Part shown: piece by piece, positions 22,815 through 28,088 of the stretch
How positions within the stretch are numbered: the first letter of the stretch is position 1
Layout: the number at the start of each line of letters is the position of its first letter
Origin: Victivallis lenta
Lineage (GTDB): Bacteria; Verrucomicrobiota; Lentisphaeria; Victivallales; Victivallaceae
Direction: 5' to 3'
DNA: 64,000 nucleotides
NCBI RefSeq assembly: GCF_009695545.1
Contig: NZ_VUNS01000001.1
Location: 434,001 to 498,000 of the forward strand
The notes under the pieces: model-generated
Told to the model about the DNA's origin: nothing
Databases searched by the model: none
The model's input: only the letters and a program-made list of their open reading frames with translations
Program-made: the position numbers and the translations under genes

Positions 22815-24086
22815 TCATTCGGCGCGAAGCACCGTAATCGGGTTCTGCTGCGCGGCCTTGTAGGCCGGATATGTGCCGAAAATCACGCCGGTAATGCTCG
22901 AAATGGCCAGCGCGAGCGCGATGCTCCAGGCCGAGTAGATGGTCGGCATTTCGGTATAGTAGGTGATCGTCCGGCCGATGCCGACGCCGAGCATGATTCC
23001 GAGCACGCCGCCGGTCGAGGTCAGGAACACGGTCTCGATCAGGAACTGCAGCAGGATATCCGACTTCTGCGCGCCGAGCGCGCGGCGCGTGCCGATCTCC
23101 TTGCGCCGCTCATAGACGCTCGCAAGCATGATGTTCATGATGCCGATGCCGCCGACCACCAGCGAAATGCCGGCGATCGAACCCATGACGATCGTAAAGA
23201 TGTTCTGGGTCTGCTCCATCTGTTTCAGGAGCTCGAGCGGCACAACCATGCCCCAGTCCTTCGTATCGGAGTGGGTCTTCTCCAGATAACCGGCCACACG
23301 CTTCGAGGTGTTGTCGATATAGCTGGTGTCATTCACCTTGACCAGAAACAGATCGTATTCGATCCGGGTGATCTTGTGGTTCCGGCCCTCCCGGTAGAAG
23401 GTATAGTCCTTGCAGAGCGCCCGCGCCGTGGTCATCGGAATCAGAATCATGTCATTCTGGCTGCCGACCTCCGGATACTGCGTGCCGTATTCGTTGTCGA
23501 TGATGCCGATGATGCGGAACACCATGTCCTCGACCCGAATCGTGCTGCCGACGATATCCGTGTTTCCGATCGAAAAGAGCTTGCGCTTGACGTTCCTGCC
23601 GATCACGCAGACGTATGCGTTGTTCTTGAAATCGGCCGGAGTGAACCAGCGCCCCTTGTCGACCCGCCCCAGCGAATCCTGCAGGAACTCGTAGTCGCAG
23701 CCGACCAGCTTGATATCCGTCCGGTCCAAACCTTTCAGGACCTTTTTGCGCGCATCGAAAACACCGGTGATGCGTTCGACATTGTCCATCTTCAGAATAT
23801 TGTTCACGTCGCGTTCGTTCAGCCCGTAGCGTTCCATCACGCTGGCATTGTCCGAGCCTTCGCTCCGGCCGTCCACCGGAGGCCGCTTCGAAAACAGAAT
23901 GATCTTGTCGATGCCCATCGCCTCGATCTGGGCCAGTGCCGACTGCTTCGCGCCCTCGGAGATCGCGAGCATCGCGATCACGCTGCCGACGCCGAAAATC
24001 ACGCCGAGCGAGGTCAGAATCGAACGGACTTTATGCAGCAACAGATTGTGCAGCGAAAGTTTGAAGAGGTCCCGGACCAGCATCAT
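22815..24086 (-). CDS. MacB-like ABC transporter permease
   Basis: 423 residues: an N-terminal transmembrane helix (VRSILTSLGVIFGVGSVIAM), a ~220-residue periplasmic core domain of the MacB_PCD type, and three C-terminal helices of the FtsX family (IFTIVMGSIAGISLVVGGIGIMN begins the set, with ERRKEIGTRRALGAQ after it). It lacks the fused ATPase of classical MacB, which is supplied by the next gene upstream. This class works mechanically, driving substrates from the periplasm outward through an adaptor and outer-membrane channel. Start ATG overlaps the ATPase stop by 4 nt. It is the last gene of the operon and is followed by a terminator. Confidence 0.9.
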   Translation of the reverse strand: MMLVRDLFKLSLHNLLLHKVRSILTSLGVIFGVGSVIAMLAISEGAKQSALAQIEAMGIDKIILFSKRPPVDGRSEGSDNASVMERYGLNERDVNNILKMDNVERITGVFDARKKVLKGLDRTDIKLVGCDYEFLQDSLGRVDKGRWFTPADFKNNAYVCVIGRNVKRKLFSIGNTDIVGSTIRVEDMVFRIIGIIDNEYGTQYPEVGSQNDMILIPMTTARALCKDYTFYREGRNHKITRIEYDLFLVKVNDTSYIDNTSKRVAGYLEKTHSDTKDWGMVVPLELLKQMEQTQNIFTIVMGSIAGISLVVGGIGIMNIMLASVYERRKEIGTRRALGAQKSDILLQFLIETVFLTSTGGVLGIMLGVGIGRTITYYTEMPTIYSAWSIALALAISSITGVIFGTYPAYKAAQQNPITVLRAE

Positions 24087-24889
24087 TTCGACACCTCGCC
24101 GATCTCGGCTTCCGCCGTTTTGCGCTGCGCTTCGACCTCGGCGACCATCTTCTTCTCAAGCGCCTTGACCTCCCACTCGAACAGCGTATCGTCGATCCGC
24201 CCGTCGCGCAGGCGGATGATCTTGTCGTAATGCGGACCGAGCGCCGGGTTGTGGGTCACCATGACGATGGTCACCCCCTGCTCCCGGTTCAGCTGGTGGA
24301 ACAGCTTCATGATCTCGTCGCTGGTCTTTTCATCGAGGTTGCCGGTCGGTTCGTCGGCCAGGATGAAAGCCGGATTGTTCGACAACGCCCGCGCGATCGC
24401 GATGCGCTGGCATTCGCCGCCCGAAAGCTGCGTCGGCCGGTGGCCGAGCCGGTGACCGAGCCCGACCCGCTGGGCAAGCTCGAGCGCCCGCTTGCGCCGG
24501 ATCCGCCCCGGCACCCGGCCGTAGACCATCGGAACCTCGACGTTCTCCTCCACCGAAAGGTGCGGGAACAAATTGAAGCTCTGAAAGATGAAGCCGATCT
24601 TCCGGTTCCGGATCGTCGCCTGCTCCACATCCGAAAGCTGGCCGACCTCGATATCCTCGAGGAAGTACTCTCCGCCGGTCGGCACGTCGAGCATGCCGAG
24701 AATATTCAGCAGCGTCGACTTGCCGGAACCGGAGGTCCCGATGAAGCCGACGAATTCTCCGCGCTTGACCGTCGCATTGATCCCTTTCAGGACGGGAACC
24801 TGCAAATCCCCGGTAAAATAGGTCTTGCGGATATCGATCAGCCGGACAATGTCCTCCGGCCTGGCCGCTCCCGCCGCATTATCCGCCAT
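24083..24889 (-). CDS. MacB/LolD-type ABC transporter ATP-binding protein
   Basis: 268 residues with Walker A GTSGSGKST, Q-loop FQSFNLFPHL, signature LSGGECQR, Walker B FILADEPTGNLD and switch His VTHNP. The usual length of this class is ~225; the extra ~35 residues at the C-terminus are charged and probably helical (LEKKMVAEVEAQRKTAEAEI), possibly contacting the permease. It would energise the permease encoded just downstream. Its start codon shares one base with the adaptor's stop and its stop overlaps the permease start, so the three are translationally coupled. Confidence 0.93.
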   Translation of the reverse strand: MADNAAGAARPEDIVRLIDIRKTYFTGDLQVPVLKGINATVKRGEFVGFIGTSGSGKSTLLNILGMLDVPTGGEYFLEDIEVGQLSDVEQATIRNRKIGFIFQSFNLFPHLSVEENVEVPMVYGRVPGRIRRKRALELAQRVGLGHRLGHRPTQLSGGECQRIAIARALSNNPAFILADEPTGNLDEKTSDEIMKLFHQLNREQGVTIVMVTHNPALGPHYDKIIRLRDGRIDDTLFEWEVKALEKKMVAEVEAQRKTAEAEIGEVSK

Positions 24890-26415: not shown

Positions 26416-26417
26416 TT

Positions 26418-28088
26418 TCACTTCCCGTCGGTTGCGGCGGAATCGGAATTCGCCGGTTTTTCGGTTTCAACGACTTCGGCAGGCGCCGGTTCGGTCACCT
26501 CCGGCGTTCCGGCGCCCTCCTTCGGTTCGACCGTCACGCGGACGGTCGGTTTCTCCGTCAGGAGCCCGGGCGCGGACTGCGCCGCCTTCGGTTCCGGCTT
26601 CTCCTCCGGCTCCATGATGAACACTTCGGAGTCGAACGGCCTGATCGTCTCGGCGCCCGTCTCCGCGGCGTCATCGACGGCGACCGGAGCGGCCTTGAAC
26701 TCCCTGCGGCGCTGCTGTTCCCGGCCGGGCAGCGCACCTTCGATCTCATCCTTGAACTTCTTGAGCGACGCGTCATGCGACGGGAAGCTGTCGGAGTGGA
26801 CGACGATCTGGTTCAGCTTTTCGCTGACCTTCGCATTGCGGTCGAAGTCGTAAAACACGCCACTGGCCACCTGTTCCGGGGAAATAATGTGGATCTTCAG
26901 GAAGAAAATCAGCTGGGTGACCTCCTTCGACTCGTTCTTGCCGGTGAAAAGCTCGCCGATGTACGGCAGATCGGAGAGGATCGGCACGCGCTGCTGCTGG
27001 AGCGTATTGCGGCTGTTGTAAAGCCCGCCCATCATGACCACCTGCTTGTCCTGCATCCGGAGATGGGTTTCGACGCTGCGCGCCGAGATCACCGGGACCG
27101 AATAGGACGAGTCGCCGCTCGACACGCTTTCGTAACGCAATACGTTCGAAACCTTCGGATAGACCCGCAGCGTCACGTTGTCGCGGTTGATCATACTCGG
27201 TTCGACCTCGAGCGTCACGCCGACGTTTTTGAAGGTCGTGCTCAACAGCACGTTGTTGCCGGACGAAGTCGCCTCCTGGATCGGGATCTCCTCGCCGGTG
27301 ATGATACGGCTGACTTCGTTGCGCGAAATCAGAATGTTCGGGCTCGACAGCACCGACGCATCCTGCGCGGTCTCAAGCCACTGGAACGCGATGTTCATCG
27401 AGTCCTTTCCCGCATACGGCGTGAAGTTGCCGGTCGCGCCGGAGGTCGTCGGGCTCGTATTGCCCGGAATCTGGGTCTGGGCGCCGGTTTTGTAGCGGTC
27501 CCCCTGGAACATGATCGAAAGATTGCGCTGCATGCCGTCGTTGAACAGGACCTCGACGACCTTCGCTTCGATCAGAATCTGCGGGGACGGGATATCCATC
27601 GCCTCAAGGATCTCCTTGTAGCTCTCGATCTCCTTCGCATCCGCGTTGATGATCAGTTCATTCTGCTCGTCGAGCGGCTCGACCAGCGTGGAGCCGGTGA
27701 TGACGCCGTCCAGCGCCTTGAACATCTTCTTGGACGAGGTGAAGCGGGGGCGGAAAATCAGCGTGGCCCGGTCGTTGGCCGATTTGATCACCTTGCTGTA
27801 GGGAGGAGAAATCTTGCGCTTCGACTCATGCACAACCGGAGCCGGGGAATCATCGGCGAACAGCTCGGACAGCTCCTCGATCACGGTACGCACGTTCTCC
27901 TTCCCCCTGATGAGGTCCTCTTCGGTGCGGATGATCGGAGCATCCTGCTCCGCCGCGGCGAGGGAACCGGGAAGCGCGGTCAACACCATCGCCGAACCGC
28001 ACATGACGGCAGCCGACTTCAACAATCGAGTTTGCCCGAAAAGCATTTTCTTCTGGAATCCTTTACTTTTATCTTTATTGGTAGTCAC
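26418..28088 (-). CDS. Secretin-family outer-membrane channel (type II/III secretion GspD-like)
   Basis: 556 residues. A signal peptide (SAAVMCGSAMVLTALPGSLAAA) precedes one or two N-type domains (ILIEAKVVEVLFNDG) and the secretin core: SSPNILISRNEVSRI, VEPSMINRDNVTLRVYPKVS and the signature VPILSDLPYIGELF near residue 370. The last ~130 residues are acidic and Pro-rich, perhaps a pilotin- or wall-binding tail. Secretins form large gated pores for type II/III secretion or type IV pili. Here no other secretion gene follows; the partners are an HlyD adaptor and a MacB-like transporter. The GTG at 28088 gives the longest form; an in-frame ATG at 28046 begins just ahead of the signal peptide and is a real alternative. 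Confidence 0.88.
   Translation of the reverse strand: MTTNKDKSKGFQKKMLFGQTRLLKSAAVMCGSAMVLTALPGSLAAAEQDAPIIRTEEDLIRGKENVRTVIEELSELFADDSPAPVVHESKRKISPPYSKVIKSANDRATLIFRPRFTSSKKMFKALDGVITGSTLVEPLDEQNELIINADAKEIESYKEILEAMDIPSPQILIEAKVVEVLFNDGMQRNLSIMFQGDRYKTGAQTQIPGNTSPTTSGATGNFTPYAGKDSMNIAFQWLETAQDASVLSSPNILISRNEVSRIITGEEIPIQEATSSGNNVLLSTTFKNVGVTLEVEPSMINRDNVTLRVYPKVSNVLRYESVSSGDSSYSVPVISARSVETHLRMQDKQVVMMGGLYNSRNTLQQQRVPILSDLPYIGELFTGKNESKEVTQLIFFLKIHIISPEQVASGVFYDFDRNAKVSEKLNQIVVHSDSFPSHDASLKKFKDEIEGALPGREQQRRREFKAAPVAVDDAAETGAETIRPFDSEVFIMEPEEKPEPKAAQSAPGLLTEKPTVRVTVEPKEGAGTPEVTEPAPAEVVETEKPANSDSAATDGK

Follow-up and report, generated by a model that had tools for sequence, protein, structure and literature searches.

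The window, a stretch of 64,000 nucleotides (nt) from the 5.5 Mb genome of Victivallis lenta (contig NZ_VUNS01000001.1, positions 434,001 to 498,000), carries an operon that in our reading encodes a tripartite exporter of the MacAB type, with a secretin as the probable outer-membrane exit duct instead of TolC. We assign this reading a probability of roughly three in four. TolC is a narrow outer-membrane tube, whereas secretins are wide gated pores of type II and type III secretion and of pili. The operon consists of four consecutive genes on the minus strand (22815-28088), which encode in this order the secretin (26418..28088), a MacA-like periplasmic adaptor (24889..26421), an ATP-binding cassette (ABC) ATPase of the MacB/LolD type (24083..24889), and a MacB-type permease (22815..24086). 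Neighboring genes overlap by 4, 1, and 4 nt, and a terminator-like hairpin of 9 pairs (GGATGAAGGCGGCTTTCGTCT-TTTTT, 22751-22731, minus strand) follows 3' of the stop codon of the permease, which is the last gene. The coordinates of the open reading frames (ORFs), the Pfam matches, and this hairpin confirm the four coupled genes with overlaps of 1-4 nt and a terminator that an earlier note on this DNA had described.

The evidence that appears to decide for the secretin as the exit is comparative. A profile of the adaptor matched 157 of 388 genomes of the phylum and 155 of 294 genomes in the phylum of a Planctomycetota metagenome-assembled genome (MAG), and forty loci from the first-phylum set, followed by others, were fetched and read. 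Outside the main set, 15 loci carry the secretin (L218-L227, L249, L263, L266, L285, and L290). Nearly all remaining loci agree with these in adaptor, ATPase, and permease, whereas their upstream slot is taken by a gene of the TolC family (OEP). These OEP-slot loci amount to 58, with 15 recognized through Pfam OEP (PF02321) and 43 through a hidden Markov model built from those 15; in L273, the OEP gene sits 2.7 kb off. No duct gene lies nearby in the exceptions L244, L187, L283, and L284, and the gene order in L283 is ATPase-adaptor-permease. As an observation on the side, two loci in the phylum of the Planctomycetota MAG (L288 and L293) show two tandem MacA-like adaptors between OEP and ATPase, which suggests a mixed adaptor ring.

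For the phylogeny, the permease was chosen, as it does not use the trait itself, i.e., the duct type. In the first tree, all secretin-type operons formed a single clade (Shimodaira-Hasegawa-like approximate likelihood ratio test, SH-aLRT, 100) nested among TolC-type operons, and those distant outgroups whose duct could be typed were TolC-type. When the second phylum was included, a further tree with full bootstrapping returned one clade (100/98) containing all secretin-type operons, which otherwise includes only L283 and L284, both without an adjacent outer-membrane gene. A single ancient replacement of TolC by a secretin would be the simplest history. Together with the loss of the docking tip described below, the slot swap and the single-clade permease trees lend strong support to the proposal of the earlier note that a MacAB-type pump is combined with a secretin that would replace TolC.

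The adaptor (510 amino acids (aa) with an N-terminal membrane anchor; Pfam HlyD_D23, E=8.9e-11) shows the lipoyl, beta-barrel, and membrane-proximal domains and the alpha-hairpin of MacA-type adaptors. Its best match was MacA both by sequence profile and by structure (5nik_D of MacAB-TolC, Z 18.7, 329 residues, root-mean-square deviation (rmsd) 6.8). According to the AlphaFold2 model (predicted local distance difference test, pLDDT, 86) and the alignments, the hairpin spans residues 114-310 (25492..26082, minus strand), with helices at 114-204 and 215-310 and a tip near 205-214, and measures about 140 Å by helix rise. The earlier note had considered this hairpin to be extra long and thereby suited to a secretin. 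Such an adaptation was rejected, as the hairpin insert comprises 205-208 aa in secretin-type adaptors (with one outlier of 264 aa) and exactly 198 aa in most TolC-type sisters. Since the TolC-type inserts are nearly as long and the tip sequence is altered, hairpin length is not the changed feature. The hairpin centre is among the best-conserved parts of TolC-type adaptors, whereas it is the least conserved part of the secretin-type ones.

For this tip, the RLS/RLT motif, whose contact with TolC was shown experimentally (PMC3391258), was used as a model. The motif L.{6}[STN]..[DEQ] near the hairpin centre was found in 33 of 38 TolC-type but in only 7 of 52 secretin-type adaptors, and the adaptor in the window is among those without it. 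Shuffled sequences gave an expectation of about 11 per group, which places the secretin-type count at or below chance. A strict R-x3-L-x6-S/T expression revealed no difference (2/52 secretin-type and 3/38 TolC-type adaptors, thus rare in both) because the TolC-type tips here retain L...S/T..E/D without the arginine. Only after this result had been seen was the relaxed form picked, which was then compared with the shuffles. These data argue that the adaptor lost its TolC-docking tip motif along with the swap of the duct. Two mid-hairpin patches, 'KY..LE' and 'FKRYTxPNK', were tried as secretin contacts and rejected, as weaker equivalents occur in TolC-type hairpins.

The adaptor could still dock on a TolC-family protein encoded elsewhere, with the secretin being an unrelated passenger of the operon. 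This is how E. coli MacAB works with regard to its duct, as it relies on TolC, whose gene is located apart from macAB, and the V. lenta genome contains two OEP genes outside the operon, one adjoining an RND pump (C18) and one (C19, L097) with no efflux operon adjacent. We consider this arrangement improbable. The tip motif count in secretin-type adaptors argues against it, the adjacency of secretin and adaptor is maintained throughout the order and beyond, and the OEP that was displaced from the operon has no close relative in the genome. A TolC partner in trans is unlikely because the C19 OEP fits the model of operon-type OEPs poorly (40.6 bits, compared to 68 to over 700 bits for the other model members) and because the distribution of OEP genes does not follow that of the operon. 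Such genes were found in 98 of the order's 100 genomes, irrespective of whether the operon is there, and the remaining two genomes are incomplete. A strict co-occurrence of TolC with the operon, which would have contradicted the hybrid proposed in the earlier note, was therefore not seen; conversely, the near ubiquity of OEP genes led us to reject an absence of TolC as proof. The same note had also suggested testing for an absence of TolC and of the type II ATPase GspE, which did not hold for this genome, as it has two OEP genes and, likewise outside the operon, 14 T2SSE family matches.

The four genes are a conserved and self-contained unit. Relatives of the secretin (E < 1e-20) were detected in 71 of the 100 genomes of the order, of which the weak ones may be other secretins. 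The named relatives of the operon belong to Victivallis vadensis DSM 14823 (L120) and Lentisphaerota bacterium zth2 (L133), and many more to uncultured Lentisphaeria and Victivallales. Within the 40 fetched loci, adaptor, ATPase, and permease follow the secretin wherever the contig permits, except in L086, which is a secretin alone, and L083. In L083 and L155, the ATPase is missing between adaptor and permease, with the contig of L083 being cut, and in L174, a secretin-type adaptor, ATPase, and permease are present while the secretin is not adjacent. Loci retrieved by the adaptor only provide a sample that is unbiased for the secretin. The arrangement is not a product of chance, because in 70 of the 72 adaptor-found loci with enough upstream DNA the secretin comes immediately before the adaptor (median gap 3 nt), and the gene order is intact in all 60 loci where all three downstream genes are visible (60/60); the same four-gene order, which the earlier note had suggested looking for, is thus found in other genomes. 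Correlations between the pairwise distances of the secretin, the adaptor, the ATPase, and the permease amount to 0.74-0.87, with null maxima near 0.2, as expected if the four proteins were co-inherited. Clustering of all ORFs in the 40 loci found no other flanking gene conserved beyond close relatives, and no conserved gene for a cargo next to the operon. The pseudopilin or hydrolases of the window, once put forward as cargo, could not be linked to the operon, and the flanking genes are not conserved.

The secretin, with 556 aa as listed, is composed of a signal peptide, a conserved N-terminal helix, one N1-like domain (residues 97-183; 27540..27800, minus strand), the secretin domain, and a variable C-terminal tail. 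Pfam recognizes one Secretin_N domain besides the secretin domain. The single N-domain matches that of XcpQ (Z 9.9, rmsd 1.5 over 63 residues), and the pore domain (residues 238-402; 26883..27377, minus strand; PF00263, E=4.8e-39) has a GspD/PilQ/pIV-like fold, with the model aligning with the pores of GspD, PilQ, InvG, and pIV. Across the 38 members of the operon-secretin family, the pore domain was present in 38/38 and a Secretin_N match in 28/38, while an N0/STN domain was found in none of the 38. With 159 of 351 bits for GspD and 136 of 284 bits for PilQ, the secretin stays far below the NCBIfam cut-offs. When a tree was built that included 14 further secretins of this genome, namely two GspD beside GspE (C4 and C10), two of the pilus type (C3), and five pairs, the operon secretins formed a clade of their own (support 99). 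The clustering with GspD that would have undermined the earlier proposal was hence not observed.

The five pairs, which are situated on other contigs of this genome, deserve mention in their own right. Two secretin-domain genes each lie at L102:6143-9357, L103:5219-8609, L104:6587-9817, L105:3107-6237, and L106:6525-9615, with lengths of about 470-510 aa and 540-615 aa, respectively; the partners represent two paralogous clades, and no recognized type II or pilus genes are adjacent to these pairs. A further locus (L107:5739-17596) combines two T2SSE-type ATPases, FHA-like proteins, and a short secretin and resembles a Tad/type IVc pilus system.

It is conceivable, if doubtful, that the MacAB-like parts do not pump through the secretin but form an ABC/adaptor complex in its service, which would deliver, insert, or load it or else a component of a pilus or type II system, in the way proposed for pilGHI in the Myxococcus pilus cluster. 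An ABC exporter of Myxococcus xanthus is co-transcribed with the pilin and needed for pili (PMC3546991), and the V. lenta genome carries type II, type IV, and Tad-like loci. However, in the loci studied, the operon is not accompanied by any conserved gene for pilin, GspE, GspF, or PilMNOP, and GspC/E/F, pseudopilin, or pilus genes are likewise not conserved across the 40 operon loci. Furthermore, the operon secretin is without the N0 domain for type II or pilus partners, and it occupies the slot of a TolC channel that is plainly the exit duct in the sister operons.

The engine of the putative exporter resembles MacB. The permease (423 aa with periplasmic core and FtsX domains; MacB_PCD PF12704, E=3e-32; FtsX PF02687, E=6.3e-23) matches MacB 5lil over its full length (E=1.1e-46 over 6-422). 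The ATPase (268 aa; Pfam ABC_tran, E=7.4e-33) is separate from the permease, so that the single chain of MacB is represented here by two ORFs overlapping by 4 nt. With 238.8 bits for MacB, the ATPase scores close to its 230.9 bits for LolD (LolD cut-off 307.75), which would agree with a Lol- or sensor-like type VII ABC envelope system that extracts lipoproteins or lipids, while the secretin accepts material for the cell surface. This is highly improbable, as the permease reaches 189.6 bits for MacB but 29.7 bits for LolC/E (lolCE cut-off 362) and has the MacB core domain, and a separate LolCD-like pair is encoded at C7. To our knowledge, LolCDE has no MacA-type adaptor. A second adaptor-ATPase-MacB set, distantly related to the operon, is situated near a contig end of the same genome (L261:5869-9292, C13).

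If the operon encodes an exporter with a secretin duct, the following course can be envisaged. MacB-type transporters do not pass the substrate through the inner membrane; motion of the periplasmic domain expels cargo that is in the periplasm (PMC5985334). The split MacB dimer of ATPase and permease would accordingly work by mechanotransmission on a substrate already located there. A ring of the MacA-like adaptors, with hairpins of approximately 140 Å, could reach the short periplasmic mouth of the secretin, which would be formed by the conserved N-terminal helix and the single N1 ring. The substrate would then exit by way of the gated pore of the secretin, whose width far exceeds that of TolC and might let folded or bulky cargo pass. 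MacB cargoes in the literature range from macrolides to proteins of about 10 kDa (PMC8277102), and the secretin pore would permit cargo larger than these. It is from the genes, the exchange of the duct, and the change of the tip that we infer a contact between adaptor and secretin as well as export.

Some points weigh against a secretin as the duct of this pump. A hexameric adaptor facing a 12-16-fold secretin would result in a symmetry mismatch. The root of the permease tree depends on the chosen TolC-type outgroups, and the p value of 1.6e-12 for the tip motif stems from related sequences and is not a probability of independent events. Finally, the C19 OEP without an efflux operon beside it is a possible TolC partner in trans. 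Taking all of this together, we lean towards an undescribed class of machine in which substrate from the periplasm, perhaps in folded form, would be driven through a secretin by a MacB-type mechanotransmission pump, with neither a pseudopilus nor a GspE-type motor involved. This class would go back to a single event in which a secretin took the place of TolC, in an ancestor spread over bacteria of the Planctomycetes-Verrucomicrobia-Chlamydiae (PVC) group.

With regard to gene boundaries, the true start of the secretin is probably ATG 28046 rather than GTG 28088, because its relatives align from 'MLFGQTRL'; from ATG 28046, the signal peptide begins with MLFGQTRLLKSAAVMCGS... The adaptor may start at ATG 26415. 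Upstream, glycosyltransferase-like and pseudopilin-like genes (28270-30602, plus strand) diverge from the operon and are retained only in the near relatives L057-L059.

Full-text searches of an open library, with subscription papers and preprints outside their scope, yielded no description of a secretin combined with MacB or MacAB, which suggests a secretion machine that is undescribed in the literature searched. The reviews consulted let tripartite ABC pumps exit via TolC-family ducts and leave secretin ducts unmentioned (PMC5985334, PMC8277102). There is a real chance that the operon deserves a class of its own. The family would represent a natural exchange experiment, in which exit ducts prove swappable on a MacAB engine, and it would supply a secretin with a motor apart from pili and injectisomes and make adaptor-duct recognition testable. 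The operon is widespread in gut Lentisphaerota and can be studied because cultured members, including V. vadensis DSM 14823 and strain zth2, carry it.

For comparison, MacAB-TolC of E. coli (type VII ABC, MacA/MacB, 5nik) shares the MacA-like adaptor and the co-transcribed ATPase and MacB-like core/FtsX permease, whereas the operon differs in its secretin in place of an OEP, a tip without the docking motif, a hairpin insert of about 206 aa, and the split of ATPase and permease. The OEP-type MacAB operons of the same and the second phylum (e.g., L229, L239, L245, and L299) are alike in adaptor family, split ATPase and permease, gene order, and similar hairpin length, but the position of the secretin is occupied by a TolC-family gene, and their adaptors keep the docking motif at the hairpin tip. 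GspD and PilQ have the secretin pore domain and an N1-like domain in common with the operon secretin, which, however, lacks N0, has a single N domain where they have several, and is not flanked by type II or pilus genes. Phage f1 pIV is likewise a short secretin with a dedicated inner-membrane partner, a similar pore fold (Z 12.8), and no type II system; its partners are pI/pXI, whereas a MacAB-type ABC machine would take this role in the operon. The nearest precedent is given by the ABC genes pilGHI in the pilus cluster of Myxococcus xanthus (PMC3546991), where ABC exporter genes are tied to a system using a secretin as well; there, however, they belong to a complete type IV pilus cluster and are transcribed with pilA, and no exchange of TolC for a secretin in the slot is known.

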